DNA of 52,368 bases, from IMG/VR virus record IMGVR_UViG_3300025645_000102, positions 1 through 52,368 of that record. One strand, 5' to 3'. The position numbers and the translations under genes were made by a program. This document shows, piece by piece, positions 1,291-22,437 of the stretch. This stretch comes from a virus. The notes under the pieces were generated by a model. The model saw only the letters and a program-made list of their open reading frames with translations. It was not told where the DNA came from and made no database searches. Position 1 is the stretch's first letter. Each line of letters begins with the position of its first letter.

Positions 1291-1319
1291 TTGACAAATT
1301 AATATATTTGATATATTAT
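1291..1319 (+). promoter_or_regulatory. sigma-70 promoter driving the gene-free structured region
   Basis: A perfect -35 TTGACA (1291-1296) lies 17 bp before TATTAT (1314-1319). Transcription should begin near 1326 and would first produce about 400 nt without a good open reading frame. An ATTGAGATTA element follows at 1330-1339, resembling the AT[C/T]GAGGAAA leader of other promoters here, but no gene starts after it. Confidence 0.85.
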
Positions 1320-1325
1320 AGATAC

Positions 1326-1723
1326 TTAGATTGAGATTACAGAGTAATTTCTTGTTTAAGACTTCGGCGCAAATCCAAGAGCCTTTTATTAGGTGTAGCG
1401 TAGGCCGAGCCTACAGAACTTCAGAGGTTGATTAACCTCTCCTGACACAAAGAAACGTACAGCGGGAGCTTGCGCAGGGCATGTGTCGGAAACATAATAC
1501 CCACGATCAGGGTACTAACCGTGGATGCATTGTAATGATGTAAGCCTAGGGTGTTGGCATCGTAAGATGTTTTAGCTAGCTATTCTAGCGCGAAAATCGG
1601 CCACCCACTGTACCGAGGTACGACAAAAAGGTGGTTTAAGACAGCGCACACGGCCTGGAAGGGTATACTCCAAAGGTGTAGGTACCAAAAAATCAGTAAC
1701 AAAAAATCAAACAGGAATAAACA
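1326..1723 (+). ncRNA. Candidate structured noncoding RNA or long structured 5' leader (possible origin region)
   Basis: About 400 bases lie between a strong promoter and the next start codon, with no convincing ORF. By eye they contain many helices: 1400-1405/1409-1414, 1423-1429/1434-1440 (7 bp, GATT loop), 1444-1449/1482-1487 enclosing an AGC-GGGA-GCT hairpin (1461-1470), 1501-1505/1520-1524, 1557-1561/1566-1570 closed by the GNRA loop GTAA, 1575-1579/1585-1589, and 1601-1605/1630-1634 enclosing 1610-1613/1618-1621. GCGC at 1588-1591 can pair with GCGC at 1644-1647. The base composition is richer in G+C than the flanking genes. Signatures of tRNA, tmRNA, RNase P RNA and group I introns were not found. 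A UL9-like helicase gene follows 370 bases later, so an origin function is an alternative. Confidence 0.6.
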
Positions 1724-2093: not shown

Positions 2094-4841
2094 ATGACTA
2101 TTTCAGTACTACATGCTTGTGACTACAACGATAGAAATAAGCACGGTGAGTTTTTTAGAATAACTAGAGAAAACACCTTTTTAACTAAACGAATAGATAA
2201 GCAAGGCAATAAACTTAAAGCCAACTTCCCAAAGAAGTTTAAGCTAGGAGATTTTTATACCCCAGATTCGTTAACGGAATTAAAGCCTATACTAGAGCTG
2301 CTTGGCGAAGACCCCAAAGCTCTAATAATACGGCACCAATATATCAACGCTAAAATGGGAGATACAGTATTTAGACAGGCTAAATTCGTAAAGAATGAAG
2401 CTAGTAGAATAATCTGTATGGACATTGATGAGCTGGATTTACCAATGGATTTGGAACCTACGGACATAGTAGGACAGGGACTATACGTGTGTAATATTTT
2501 ACATAAATGTAATCCTAATATATTTCCAGACGACATGGGCTTTATTGCTCAGGGATCATCGAGCGCAGGACTTAGCAGGACTATAAAGCTACACTTATGG
2601 TTAGAGAACTATGATTGTGTAGACCAGTCTCAACTAAAGAACCTATTCTATAGTGTCAATAGCACTTTTAAATCTAGGTTCGAAACAAATATAAACTTAA
2701 TAGACGTATCACTATATAACGATATACAGGCGCACTATACCGCTTATCCTATGTTTGAGGAGACTTTGTCAGACCCATTAAAAGGTAAGCGTACGAGATA
2801 TAATTATGGGAATCGTTGCTATGTCCCCGAGGATTACGTTAGTTATGTAAAACCAGCAGTTACTACCGACCTTGAGCGTACAACATATTTGAATGCTATC
2901 ACGGGTAGTACCCTTCAAACTCTTGAACTATCTAATAGGATTAATGCCTTGAAAGATTGGGGCTCTTCTACTTCTGGTTTACGTAAAGCTGTTATTGCTA
3001 CATACCATACTGCTGTACAAACCCAGTATTGCTTAGATTTACTAAGAAAAGATATAACAAATGTATTGGATAGTAAACGACCAGGTGAGCTAGAAAACTA
3101 TATTTCACAGGGTATAGCTAGTGCTGTATCTAATGTTAAAGCTTGCTCTGTTCGCGAGGTACCTCTAAAATGTTTGGGTCTCCCACTGAAAACTATTAGT
3201 GGTGGTGGTGAAGAAAAGTTTCTAAATATGGGAGAATACCCACCACCAGATTCTGTAGTATTCTTAAAAGCTACGCTAGGGACGGGGAAAACTTATAACA
3301 TAGAGCAGTGGTTAAAGTCTGGACACATCGAGGGTAGATTCCTAGCTTTGACAGATACTTCGGCTTTAGTAGAATCAAACACGAAAAGATTCAACCCTGC
3401 ACGAGACTTTAGAAATCCCAAAGGAAGATTAGACTTTGCTACAGGTAAGGTTCAACGTCTTTCTGGCACGTTGCACTCTCTTTATAAAATCAAAGACTTA
3501 ACTAATAGCTTTGATTTTTTGTTTATAGATGAGGCAGATTCTCTGATGAATAATTTATTGTTCGCTACAATAATAAGCGAAGAAAAGCGAGTTATCATAA
3601 TAGAAGTTCTACGGGAGTTGTTGCAAAATACAGATAGAGTTATAATAAGTGATGGGGATATATCGGAAGAAACAGTAGCCCAATATGTAGAGTTAATGCA
3701 AGGTTCTAGGAATCTATACAGAGTATCGCACAAACGTCAAAATCTAAAGGGCGTTCCTGCGTACAAACATGTTAAAGAGAGTTCTTTATGGGGAGCTTTG
3801 CAGGGACACTTAGAGCTAGGAGATAAATGCTTGTTAGTTTCCGATTCTTCGCCAAAAGCTATCAATGAGTACTTGACTGCATTCAATAGATTGTTGCCTA
3901 GCAAAGTTATAAAGGTAGTTCATTCTTCATCTACTGACGATCATGATATTCGTGATATTATAGATAATACTACCGTAGCTTTGCGTAGACAAGAGGTAGA
4001 CGCATTAATATGTAGTCCTAGTATTACTAATGGGGTAGACTTTAATTATTTTGATACTGTGTTTATCTTGACCACATCTGAGAATCACACACCAAATATG
4101 AGGTTCCAGGCTATGATGCGAGAACGCTCACCTGAGACTATTCATTATTATTTTGGTCTTATGAAACAGTTTATTACAGGTTTTTCTAGTGTGACAGTTG
4201 ATAAAGACTTCTTGCCCACAGCTAGGAAAGCTTATGCAGCTAGGAGGGAGCGAGAGTATAAAACTTATGTAGCCACGTTTAATTACTATTTGGTAGAGTC
4301 TGGTGCTACAGTAGAAGTTATAGACGTTCCTTACGATAATCCCAAAGAAGCTGTAGATAAAGAAGAATACTTGATAGAAAGAATAATGGCTATATTAAAC
4401 GCCAAAGAAAGTGTATCGCAAGCACGACATAACGATGCCTATGAAATGAAAGAGAAGATAAAATTCTTTTATGATGTAGACGAGTTAGCTTGGGATGATG
4501 TGGCGTGTTTTCTTAAAGAAAAACCAGATAAATGCGCTGAATACTTTCATAAGTTATATAAATCTTTTGGAAAAGAAATTCTGTCGGCTAGCGTAGAAAA
4601 CCTACTGATTGCTTTGAGAAGTAGACCGAATGAGTTTTACTTGGCTGTAGGTGGTTCTTTGCAGGGAATAAACTCTCAAAGTGGGATCAATAAAACTAAA
4701 CAGATACTTAGTAGGTGTGGCGTTAAGAAAACATCTTCTAATTTACTAGAATGGTATACAAAGTACTGTGAGTACACCGATGGAATAATTTTACCACCAG
4801 AACTTAGAGAATCAACGGAGACAATTAATGAATTACTTTAA
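2094..4841 (+). CDS. Primase-like / SF2 helicase fusion, UL9-type origin-binding-protein-like
   Basis: This 915-aa protein has two recognisable parts. Residues ~390-680 form a superfamily 2 helicase: Walker A ATLGTGKT (393-400), a DEAD box in FIDEAD (479-482), ISDGDIS (motif III region, ~518-524), SPSITNGVDF (motif V, 641-650) and QAMMRERS (motif VI, 672-679). Layout and motif style match the herpesvirus UL9 / phage replication-origin-binding-protein family. Residues ~80-250 carry a pattern like the archaeo-eukaryotic primase active site: CMDID (D110, D112), a Ser-rich loop ending in LHLWL (H167) and LIDVS (D204). The C-terminal ~200 residues are unassigned. The likely role is opening or priming DNA at the phage origin. 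It lies directly downstream of a structured gene-free region that could be that origin. The helicase part is secure; the primase part is inference. Confidence 0.8.
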   Translation: MTISVLHACDYNDRNKHGEFFRITRENTFLTKRIDKQGNKLKANFPKKFKLGDFYTPDSLTELKPILELLGEDPKALIIRHQYINAKMGDTVFRQAKFVKNEASRIICMDIDELDLPMDLEPTDIVGQGLYVCNILHKCNPNIFPDDMGFIAQGSSSAGLSRTIKLHLWLENYDCVDQSQLKNLFYSVNSTFKSRFETNINLIDVSLYNDIQAHYTAYPMFEETLSDPLKGKRTRYNYGNRCYVPEDYVSYVKPAVTTDLERTTYLNAITGSTLQTLELSNRINALKDWGSSTSGLRKAVIATYHTAVQTQYCLDLLRKDITNVLDSKRPGELENYISQGIASAVSNVKACSVREVPLKCLGLPLKTISGGGEEKFLNMGEYPPPDSVVFLKATLGTGKTYNIEQWLKSGHIEGRFLALTDTSALVESNTKRFNPARDFRNPKGRLDFATGKVQRLSGTLHSLYKIKDLTNSFDFLFIDEADSLMNNLLFATIISEEKRVIIIEVLRELLQNTDRVIISDGDISEETVAQYVELMQGSRNLYRVSHKRQNLKGVPAYKHVKESSLWGALQGHLELGDKCLLVSDSSPKAINEYLTAFNRLLPSKVIKVVHSSSTDDHDIRDIIDNTTVALRRQEVDALICSPSITNGVDFNYFDTVFILTTSENHTPNMRFQAMMRERSPETIHYYFGLMKQFITGFSSVTVDKDFLPTARKAYAARREREYKTYVATFNYYLVESGATVEVIDVPYDNPKEAVDKEEYLIERIMAILNAKESVSQARHNDAYEMKEKIKFFYDVDELAWDDVACFLKEKPDKCAEYFHKLYKSFGKEILSASVENLLIALRSRPNEFYLAVGGSLQGINSQSGINKTKQILSRCGVKKTSSNLLEWYTKYCEYTDGIILPPELRESTETINELL

Positions 4842-5038: not shown

Positions 5039-5069
5039 ATGTTTTTAGAAATTGAGAAAAGAGATAAAC

Positions 5070-5741
5070 ATGGCACGTAGAAAGAATATACCAGAAGATG
5101 TAATACTAAGAGCAAAGCTATGGCTTGACGGTGGTGGCACTAAGAAAGGTGCTTGCGATATATTAGGAGTATCCAACAATAAAACAATGGAAGCTTTGCT
5201 TGAGGAGTATGATAATAAACTTCGTGTAGATAAAGAAATTCGCGCTAAAAAGCGTAAACAAGCGGTTACTTCTCAAGAACTCGCTGAGATAATCTCAGAC
5301 CATTTGAGTGGCTATTCTATGCAAGAATTATCAGAGATCTACTATAGAAGTGCTGATACCATAAAGCATCATCTTGTCAAAAATGGTGCGCTAATTAGAA
5401 CTCATACTAAGATTGATCAACTAAGTCCCCCGCTTCTTCCAGAAGAGTGTATGTCTGATTCTTTTGATATAGGACAGTTTGTTTGGTCGGCTAAATACAA
5501 TTGCATAGCAAAAGTTATGTCGTTGTTTGGCAATGCTTATCGTATCAGAGTTTGGGGAGAGGGTATTATGCAGTACGCATATCAAGCATCTTGCGAACTA
5601 GGCAATCTAGCTCATTTAGAAGCTATCGGAGTACATCTAGGTAAACTAAGCCCAGAAATCCTAAGCACTGAAGAGATAAAACATCTAATCAATAAAACGC
5701 TGCTAGAGGCTAATAAGAAAACTAAGGCTAACAAAGATTAA
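5070..5741 (+). CDS. HTH DNA-binding protein, probable early regulator
   Basis: I place the start at the ATG at 5070 (MARRKNIPED), because the upstream in-frame TTG at 5052 lies within the promoter leader and would use up the GAGAAAAGAG ribosome binding site. The 223-aa protein contains at least two helix-turn-helix-like units. One spans residues ~8-45 (ILRAKLWLDGGGTKKGACDILGVS), followed by a basic stretch (IRAKKRKQA). The second, around residues 70-105, has the form AEIISDHLSGYSMQELSEIY, as in recruitment-type HTH proteins that sense a repeated site. The C-terminal half is unassigned and ends in a Lys-rich tail. It has its own promoter and stands alone, which fits a regulator or DNA-binding architectural factor; target unknown. 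Confidence 0.65.
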   Translation: MARRKNIPEDVILRAKLWLDGGGTKKGACDILGVSNNKTMEALLEEYDNKLRVDKEIRAKKRKQAVTSQELAEIISDHLSGYSMQELSEIYYRSADTIKHHLVKNGALIRTHTKIDQLSPPLLPEECMSDSFDIGQFVWSAKYNCIAKVMSLFGNAYRIRVWGEGIMQYAYQASCELGNLAHLEAIGVHLGKLSPEILSTEEIKHLINKTLLEANKKTKANKD

Positions 5742-5749
5742 AAAACAAA

Positions 5750-5778
5750 TTGACAATAAGTCAAAATCAACGTATAAT
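5750..5778 (+). promoter_or_regulatory. Strong sigma-70 promoter before the 132-aa gene
   Basis: TTGACA (5750-5755) and TATAAT (5773-5778) are both perfect matches, with a 17-bp spacer. The leader holds ACAGGAAAAT as ribosome binding site for the ATG at 5814 and lacks the ATCGAGGAA element of several other promoters. It probably drives the whole block from 5814 to the ligase gene ending at 7706. Confidence 0.9.
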
Positions 5779-5813: not shown

Positions 5814-6212
5814 ATGGCTTGGACAGACGAAAAACGTAAACTAGTAGTAGATTCTTATGTAACCACTATGGAAACTGAGTATACTACTGACGAAGATAGA
5901 GCTAAATCTTCAGTAGAAGTAGTAAAAGACTTAGCAGATACTCACGGTGAGACTCCAAACGGTGTTCGCCAAATGTTATCTTCAGCAGGTGTTTATATTA
6001 AAGCCACACCAGCAAAATCAAAATCTACCACTCCTGCTACAGGAACTGGCGGTACTAGAGTAAATAAGGCAGAAGCTATCCAGACTTTACGAAACTTGAT
6101 TCTTCAAGCAACTGAAAGCCCAGAGTCTTTAGACGAAGATATTCTAGGCAAAATGACAGGTAAAGCAGCTCAATACTTTGCTGGTATTCTTTTACAAGCT
6201 ACAGGGAGTTAA
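5814..6212 (+). CDS. Small DNA-binding-like protein related to the Myb-repeat protein at 8549
   Basis: The 132-aa protein starts MAWTDEKRKLVVDSYV and continues to a segment ending ETPNGVRQMLSSAGVYIK. This pattern (W-T-x-E near the start, a helix, then GVRxMLSxxGV) matches the Myb/SANT-like repeat seen four times in the protein at 8549-9277, where the equivalent segment reads SRGVKSMLSRRGL. A Ser/Thr/Pro linker (~residues 65-78) leads to a second helical domain of unknown role. It follows a consensus promoter and has a clean AGGA site, so it is likely made in quantity. I infer a single-repeat DNA-binding or chromatin-like protein. Confidence 0.6.
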   Translation: MAWTDEKRKLVVDSYVTTMETEYTTDEDRAKSSVEVVKDLADTHGETPNGVRQMLSSAGVYIKATPAKSKSTTPATGTGGTRVNKAEAIQTLRNLILQATESPESLDEDILGKMTGKAAQYFAGILLQATGS

Positions 6213-21068: not shown

Positions 21069-21465
21069 TGAAGAAAAACTTACCCCTACAATAGGGACTC
21101 TGGGGTCGGCGGGATATGATTTATATTTATCTTATGACGCTTCAATAACACCAGGGACATCTCGTATGATAGGTACGGGAGTAAAGGTTGCCATACCTTT
21201 AGGATACGCTGGAATAATTTCTCCCAGATCTAGTACCGGAAAATTAGGGCTAGGTCTAGCTAACACGATGGGTTGGATAGATTCAGATTATCGCGGAGAA
21301 ATTATGCTCAACGTAAAAAATACAGGCACAAGTACGGCTATGTTGTATAAATACGACAGGTTATTTCAAATGATAGTAGTCCCAGTAGTAACGTTACCAA
21401 TAAACATTGTAACTACACTAGATGAGACAGAAAGAGGAGAGGGCGGTTTTGGAAGCACAAGTTAA
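21049..21465 (+). CDS. dut: dUTPase (trimeric dUTP diphosphatase)
   Basis: All five motifs of trimeric dUTPases are present in 138 aa: GSAGYDL (19-25), PRSS (59-62), GWIDSDYRGEI (75-85), YKYDRLFQMIV (100-110) and RGEGGFGSTS (129-138). The enzyme hydrolyses dUTP to dUMP and keeps uracil out of phage DNA. The start is GTG at 21049 with GGAG at 21038-21041; it lies inside the flap endonuclease gene. Its position at the end of the block matches the T5 order. Confidence 0.96.
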   Translation: MLNIVVNEEKLTPTIGTLGSAGYDLYLSYDASITPGTSRMIGTGVKVAIPLGYAGIISPRSSTGKLGLGLANTMGWIDSDYRGEIMLNVKNTGTSTAMLYKYDRLFQMIVVPVVTLPINIVTTLDETERGEGGFGSTS

Positions 21466-21625
21466 TGAAGAGTTACGATTAAAGGGTATATATTTTGATA
21501 TGATAGCCTCATATGAAACTAGGATTAAACATATGGAGTCAGCGTTGTTAAATCTATGTACTACTGCTAAAGTAGAAACGGTACAAGGGTTAAAAGAGTT
21601 TATTGAAGCCAGCATGGAATCATAA
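21422..21625 (+). CDS. Hypothetical small helical protein, up to 67 aa
   Basis: An all-helical, charged small protein (MRQKEERAV...RIKHMESALLNL) that ends the rightward arm. The ATG at 21422 lies inside the dUTPase gene and lacks a good ribosome binding site; an in-frame TTG at 21449 sits 5 bases after AGGAGAGGG and could be the true start (58 aa). The sequence looks like a short coiled coil. Function unknown. Confidence 0.5.
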   Translation: MRQKEERAVLEAQVNEELRLKGIYFDMIASYETRIKHMESALLNLCTTAKVETVQGLKEFIEASMES

Positions 21626-21627
21626 AT

Positions 21628-21657
21628 AAAAAAGCCGAGCATATAGCTCGGCTTTTT
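21628..21657. terminator. Bidirectional terminator between the two converging arms
   Basis: GCCGAGC (21634-21640) pairs with GCTCGGC (21646-21652) around ATATA. A-runs on the left and T-runs on the right give a U-tract in both directions. It closes the rightward early arm and the leftward late arm, which ends at 21676. Confidence 0.93.
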
Positions 21658-21675
21658 GCTGTTTGGAGTTATTGT

Positions 21676-22437
21676 TTACACAACGCCCCACACTGCAGCC
21701 ATATTCAATACGGCTAGTTGATGTGCTAGTTTTACATCGGCTAGTGTTACATCTGTCATAACACCTGTGCTTGTATCTGCTAAAGACCACGACATTGAAA
21801 AAGTATCTTCTTCTGCAATGGCTGCTAGTATTGCACTTGCCATACGTCCGATTGATATTTCATCAGCATCAAACTGAAACCCATTAGCATCAACGACAGC
21901 GTTGTCTATTAGAACTTGTCTACTAGACTTAAACGATGCAAGTGCTGCTGCGTTATCTCTTTTAGCTTTCATAGCTACTAGGTCTTGTATAACAGGTCTA
22001 GTAGGAGCTACTAACTCATCAGGTTCTTCCAAAGGAATTTCAACACCATCTTCATCCAACTCAGGAACATAATTAGCTATTAACTCTAATCGTTCTTGAA
22101 CAGCAACAAGATAATCTTTATATTCATTAAACCACTCTAGCTGTTCTCCTGCGGCTACCATAGCTACAAAAGCGTCAATTACACGTGATGGTTTAGATAA
22201 TGAGATTACACGCTCTAAATCAGCCTTAGATTTAGTCTCAGGAGTAGGTAACTCTTTAATATAAAGAACGTCTGCATACTCGCTTACTAGACGTGAACCA
22301 GATTGCTCTACCCCCTCTTCATCAGTATAAGTAAATGTTTCAGATACTTGCTCACCCGTTCGCTCACTAACAGTAACTTCTTCGTAAAACTCCCGTATTT
22401 CTACGGGGACTTCTAGTAGTGTATTATATTCAATCAT
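21676..22437 (-). CDS. DUF4376-like tail-associated protein (fibre chaperone or tip component)
   Basis: The 253-aa protein has an acidic N-terminal half and a C-terminal section (~residues 165-253: SRQVLIDNAVVDANGFQFDADEI..., then a Trp, then VTLADVKLAHQL) resembling DUF4376, found in phage proteins encoded next to tail fibres. The ATG overlaps the stop of the long fibre gene by one base (TAATG), so it is translated with it. It is the last gene of the late arm. A role in fibre folding or attachment is inferred from position and domain. Confidence 0.55.
   Translation of the reverse strand: MIEYNTLLEVPVEIREFYEEVTVSERTGEQVSETFTYTDEEGVEQSGSRLVSEYADVLYIKELPTPETKSKADLERVISLSKPSRVIDAFVAMVAAGEQLEWFNEYKDYLVAVQERLELIANYVPELDEDGVEIPLEEPDELVAPTRPVIQDLVAMKAKRDNAAALASFKSSRQVLIDNAVVDANGFQFDADEISIGRMASAILAAIAEEDTFSMSWSLADTSTGVMTDVTLADVKLAHQLAVLNMAAVWGVV

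Follow-up and report, generated by a model that had tools for sequence, protein, structure and literature searches.

Large, multi-helix RNAs without an open reading frame, such as GOLLD and ROOL, are found in phages and prophages, and their function is unknown. Phage ICP1 makes an abundant orphan RNA of 800 nt that has been compared with both (PMC7567579). The RNA described here shares these general traits. It comes from a 52-kb virus record, analysed over its whole length and referred to below as the window, which belongs to a T5-like phage as judged by a 915-aa protein, OBP (positions 2094–4841), which matches the replication origin binding protein of the T5 family (phrog_3712, E 2e-218). 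The gene order runs from a dNMP kinase (675–1277) through a noncoding gap to a 122-aa protein and OBP. A structured RNA of roughly 340–370 nt is predicted to be encoded by 1320–1686 and presumably transcribed, with its core at 1419–1661. The locus comprises the following features.

1291–1319, + strand: sigma-70 type promoter, TTGACA-17-TATTAT, 11/12 consensus match
1325–1360, + strand: 5′ stem-loop P1, CTTAGA (1325–1330) with TTTAAG (1355–1360); relatives have a stem in the same place with other letters
1367–1376, + strand: conserved unpaired stretch GCGCAAATCC, seen by eye
1419–1661, + strand: core closing helix, 1419–1422 with 1658–1661 (CTTC/GAAG, CTTC/GAAG, CCCC/GGGG, CCTC/GAGG)
1423–1440, + strand: P3 hairpin, 7 bp, covarying in L003 and L006
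1442–1489, + strand: P4 helix, 1442–1447 with 1484–1489, 4 of 6 pairs changed on both sides
1491–1555, + strand: junction helix, 1491–1495 with 1551–1555, enclosing P5 and P6, with covariation
1498–1514, + strand: P5 hairpin, followed by conserved CUAACCG; stem letters differ across homologues, 100% paired
1519–1550, + strand: P6 arm with conserved GUAAU loop, from the covariation analyses
1556–1571, + strand: P7 hairpin with a GNRA tetraloop (1562–1565), GNRA in 6/6 homologues, stem changing
1589–1646, + strand: P8, 1589–1591 with 1644–1646 (CGC/GCG versus CCC/GGG)
1601–1634, + strand: P8 inner stem, 1601–1605 with 1630–1634, and hairpin 1610–1621, seen by eye in each homologue, unscored
1662–1686, + strand: 3′ hairpin P10, in the window and L002 only (sequence inspection)
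1687–1723, + strand: A-rich unstructured linker with a Shine-Dalgarno sequence, AGGA, at 1713–1716
1724–2092, + strand: 122-aa small protein, first downstream gene, no Pfam match, with a relative in L006
2094–4841, + strand: OBP, T5 D1 homologue, with an AEP-primase-like N-terminal domain (DxD, SxH, hD motifs) and a UL9-like helicase

The earlier note on this DNA had described a consensus promoter followed by about 400 nt without a credible open reading frame. The promoter is indeed near-consensus, and promoters of 10–12/12 occupy the same place in L002, L003, L006, L007, L019 and many T5-like relatives; no ORF of at least 60 aa overlaps 1278–1723 on either strand. Elsewhere in the window, a perfect 12/12 consensus promoter (TTGACA-17-TATAAT, 5750–5778) lies between genes 5052–5741 and 5814–6212, and at 21465–21676 both GC skew and gene direction change sign, with replication genes on the + strand and structural genes on the − strand.

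No family of Rfam 15 (including GOLLD, ROOL, OLE, RNase P, group I and II introns and tmRNA) reached the gathering threshold in the window RNA, and the same was true of the RNAs of its relatives. A permissive search returned a single snoRNA match (E 4.9), attributable to chance, as was the only match of a direct blastn search in phage records. ARAGORN detected neither tRNA nor tmRNA, in line with the earlier note, which saw no such motifs. A candidate RNase P in Vibrio phage D124, proposed from the string GAGGAAAGTC, was dropped for lack of Rfam support. Folded as a single sequence, the region reached −110.5 kcal/mol (z −1.75; 4 of 100 shuffles equally good) and its reverse strand z −1.98. Being only marginally better than shuffled sequence, and weak by itself, folding energy was set aside as evidence for an RNA. 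Positions 1640–1780 fold no better than shuffles (z +1.09, worse than the shuffle average).

The fold is established by covariation. A GTDB genome scan with an OBP profile gave no relatives; OBP searches of viral contigs yielded relatives with the same noncoding gap. For the window, L002, L003 and L006, RNAalifold proposed 37 pairs, 17 of them with compensatory changes. Across these four homologues 97.3% of cells of the 37-pair consensus are paired and 18 of the 37 pairs are changed on both sides, a count that none of 500 shuffles equalled (mean 9.6); slid partners gave at most 5. A covariance model built from the same four sequences, model R1, found two held-out relatives directly upstream of OBP, L019 (38.5 bits, E 3.4e-8) and L007 (19.2 bits, E 0.0047). 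The resulting six-sequence alignment, which was fitted to model R1 and leans towards it, is 96.2% paired, with 27/37 pairs double-changed (slid maximum 8); RNAalifold’s own structure on this alignment has 21 of 29 pairs double-changed. Full-length analysis of the four sequences added the closing helix (28/52 pairs double-changed) and gave an alifold energy of −45.6, against a best of −6.5 among 60 column-shuffled alignments. In the window-clade RNA, G-U occurs 30 times against a single A-C, which identifies the + strand RNA as the one that folds.

Several elements noticed earlier can now be judged one by one. The 7-bp stem at 1423–1440 is real and covaries (AGAGGTT/AACCTCT versus GTGAATT/AATTCAC and GGGAG/CTCCC), and the GNRA-capped hairpin is equally real, with the loops GTAA, GTAA, GCAA, GAAA, GCAA and GAAA in the six homologues. 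For the nested domain suggested at 1588–1647, the outer pairs covary, whereas the inner stem was misaligned by MAFFT and is visible by eye only. The junction helix reads AACAT/GTGTT, AATAT/GTATT, AACCT/AGGTT and AACCT/GGGTT across homologues. Near the 5′ end, P1 has equivalents in L003 and L006 (TAGTT/AACTA) and L019 (CTTAGA/TCTAAG), with a weaker one in L002, and the stretch at 1367–1376 has counterparts, again by eye, in L003 and L006 (AGCGYAAATCC) and in L019 and L007 (AGCGCGAWATGG). Covarying P4, junction, P5, P6, P7 and P8, the features that define the R1 family, are present in the window, L002, L003, L006, L019 and L007, and all six RNAs lie upstream of the OBP gene. The remaining matches to the core pattern are coding sequence and were rejected: T4-like coding sequence in L027, L028 and L032, and the inside of a coding gene in L091. 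These comparisons show the predicted fold of the window-clade RNA to be under selection. As the earlier note had proposed, the locus is, on this comparative evidence, a new and previously unclassified folded RNA, placed just upstream of a replication-initiator gene.

In nearly all of the Demerecviridae examined, T5 included, OBP is preceded by a promoter and an ORF-poor stretch of 310–840 nt; in the 121,750-bp record taken as T5 (L050), the gap lies at 58.93–59.54 kb. The exceptions are the divergent relative L046, where no such RNA was seen by eye, and L008, whose gap before OBP yielded no 10/12 promoter. The first gene 3′ of the RNA varies while OBP is constant: the small protein in the window, a serine hydroxymethyltransferase in L003 and OBP itself in T5. 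The L003 gene (3856–5004; PF00464, E 1e-145) is full length and occupies the place of the 122-aa protein between RNA and OBP. DT57C, DU_PP_V and My1 have in common a 240-nt 3′ domain in which 31 of 61 pairs are double-changed (maximum 20 in shuffles, 6 with slid partners), and a hairpin with the invariant loop CUUAGCGG recurs, its stems changing. Compared with T5, DT57C (L041, gap 1034–1749) carries about 108 extra nt in the 5′ portion of the RNA region, and the gap of L083 is also longer. Long ORF-poor gaps upstream of OBP are likewise present in the divergent, Pogseptimavirus-like L079 and L039; in L079 the noncoding sequence at this position looks different and contains long repeated blocks such as CGTCGTCTAATGTTAAATCATAATAGAAGATCC.

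When model R1 was run against T5-type and Vibrio-type RNAs, no match was obtained at the OBP-upstream place in L008, L012–L014 and L033–L043. A single RNA family spanning the T5-type and window-type RNAs is therefore unsupported by the model. The likenesses between the two types, seen by eye only, are a 5′ hairpin, ACUAACC and GCGAUAYGG; from its place and these small motifs, we infer that the window RNA corresponds to the T5-type one. A search of open-access literature found nothing on a T5 noncoding RNA or a T5 origin.

The best fold match of OBP is HSV-1 UL9 (E 2e-13; model pLDDT 85), and Pfam Herpes_ori_bp was found in 10 of 15 OBP relatives. Archaeo-eukaryotic primases (AEP) carry their motifs in the order DxD, SxH, hD. 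D110xD112, S155..H167 and D204 of the N-terminal domain are kept in 15/15, residues D110, D112, H167 and D204 being invariant, and this motif order marks the domain as putatively AEP-primase-like.

The 3′ domain of the RNA exists in T5-like phages as two unrelated alleles, A (T5, KookSpook) and B (DT57C). We compared 24 T5-like phages, 15 with allele A and 9 with allele B. Identity of the RNA 3′ domain is 44.8% between types, which is background, and 91.6% within types. OBP codons 1–550 follow the same division (82.6% between, 91.3% within), whereas codons 551–900 (92.4% and 91.9%) and the upstream gene (74.4% and 76.2%) show no difference. Permutations, which take phages as exchangeable and use the flanking regions as a control for relatedness, gave 0/2000 for both the RNA and the OBP N-terminus, and the upstream gene and OBP C-terminus were not significant; thinning to 18 phages left the result the same. 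All 36 type-fixed amino-acid differences fall within OBP 36–519, half of them at 362–419 around the P-loop, and the co-inherited block consists of the N-terminal primase-like domain and the start of the helicase. Within either allele taken separately, covariation is weak, the sequences being too similar. In sequence terms, the allele is a predictor of the OBP N-terminus, and of neither the OBP C-terminus nor the upstream gene.

Vibrio phages present the same pattern. Achelous and Pontus are 97.6% identical upstream, 30% in the RNA 3′ domain, 78% in OBP codons 1–520 and 97% in the rest, and all Pontus-specific OBP residues lie within 1–400. Achelous together with River4 differs from Pontus in the RNA (~30%) and in OBP 1–400, with 92–99% identity beyond that. 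Ceto, a phage of another genus with the Achelous RNA type, is nearer to Achelous in the N-terminal part of OBP than in the C-terminal part. Given RNA sequences unrelated to those of the T5-like phages, this is an independent repeat of the co-inheritance, which was scored in T5-type and Vibrio phages, the window’s clade lying outside the sample. The joint exchange of the RNA and the primase half of OBP in T5-like phages suggests that RNA and protein work as a pair, and OBP and the RNA are probably partners.

Our preferred reading, to which we give a probability of roughly 0.4, is that the RNA is the dedicated partner of the initiator and acts at the adjacent origin to help load or prime OBP. 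Host RNA polymerase would transcribe the RNA from its own strong promoter, the AEP-primase-like domain of OBP would recognise it, and the RNA would then act at the replication origin beside the OBP gene. Under this proposal, RNA and protein would have to match. The T5 origin lies centrally in the genome; no origin-like repeats or iterons were found in the region. More tentatively, an AEP-primase/UL9-like initiator might, throughout the Demerecviridae, start phage DNA replication by means of a dedicated, allele-matched structured RNA, the RNA and the primase domain being exchanged together as a single specificity cassette.

The main alternative, itself somewhat doubtful, takes the RNA as the 5′ UTR of the OBP operon, to which OBP or a ligand would bind and so control OBP synthesis. 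The RNA is always upstream of OBP in the same direction, the small gene and OBP of the window are adjacent enough for coupled translation, and autogenous control would make the RNA and an RNA-binding domain co-evolve, as the co-inheritance with the OBP N-terminus allows. The earlier note had entertained such a long leader; the link to the primase-helicase stands through synteny and co-inheritance, whereas the Shine-Dalgarno region is unstructured rather than masked, and no terminator was found at the RNA 3′ end in the window. Moreover, in L003 a further gene and 240 nt lie between RNA and OBP, and second promoters follow the RNA in the Proteus phage (L036; 12/12, 36 nt before the OBP gene) and in DU_PP_V and My1 (L034 and L035; both 10/12), 36–67 nt before the gene overall, so that synthesis of OBP could proceed independently of the RNA.

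It is unlikely that the RNA is a free-standing molecule acting in trans, in host takeover, counter-defence or as a scaffold, and unrelated to OBP. Its own promoter, a GNRA and multi-helix architecture resembling other ornate RNAs, and the alternative 3′ domains of closely related phages would fit this idea, and as neighbours the RNA and OBP could be co-inherited by hitchhiking within a single recombination block, diversifying selection acting on the variable 3′ domain. Against it stand the strict synteny with OBP, a linkage that extends ~1.2–1.5 kb into OBP and hardly upstream (not beyond the promoter), and co-inheritance in two independent lineages. That the conserved element functions as DNA, as a replication origin (double- or single-stranded) with hairpins recognised at the DNA level, is very improbable: it adjoins the gene of an origin-binding protein and, in L050, lies near the middle of a T5-size genome (58.9–59.5 of 121.75 kb), but the excess of G-U over A-C, which shows that one strand folds, the strong promoter in front, the GNRA loops and the absence of iterated sites all speak against it.

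T5 has been a model phage for decades, and a covarying RNA immediately upstream of D1 appears to be unannotated in the records examined. If, as we favour, the RNA and the primase domain are matched to each other, initiation or its control in T5-like phages would depend on RNA in a mode undescribed for DNA phages, and since close relatives naturally carry two alleles, the matched-pair idea is directly testable.

Among known systems, GOLLD and ROOL differ from the window RNA, which has no Rfam match, is shorter and has a replication initiator, not tRNAs, as its neighbour. T4 gp43 binds its own mRNA and thereby controls its own synthesis; the likeness is that a replication protein and an upstream RNA element would co-evolve, although the window RNA is far larger, lies away from the ribosome-binding site and has a gene in between. 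The ColE1 RNAII primer offers a working likeness, as a promoter-driven structured transcript that could act at an origin. Unlike RNAII, the window RNA has no sequence match to it and no antisense, RNAI-like promoter (no minus-strand site of at least 9/12 within 1291–1723), and its partner would be a phage primase-helicase. Herpesvirus UL9 shares the fold and Pfam family of the OBP helicase part, OBP having in addition the N-terminal primase-like domain; this last likeness concerns the protein partner and not the RNA.
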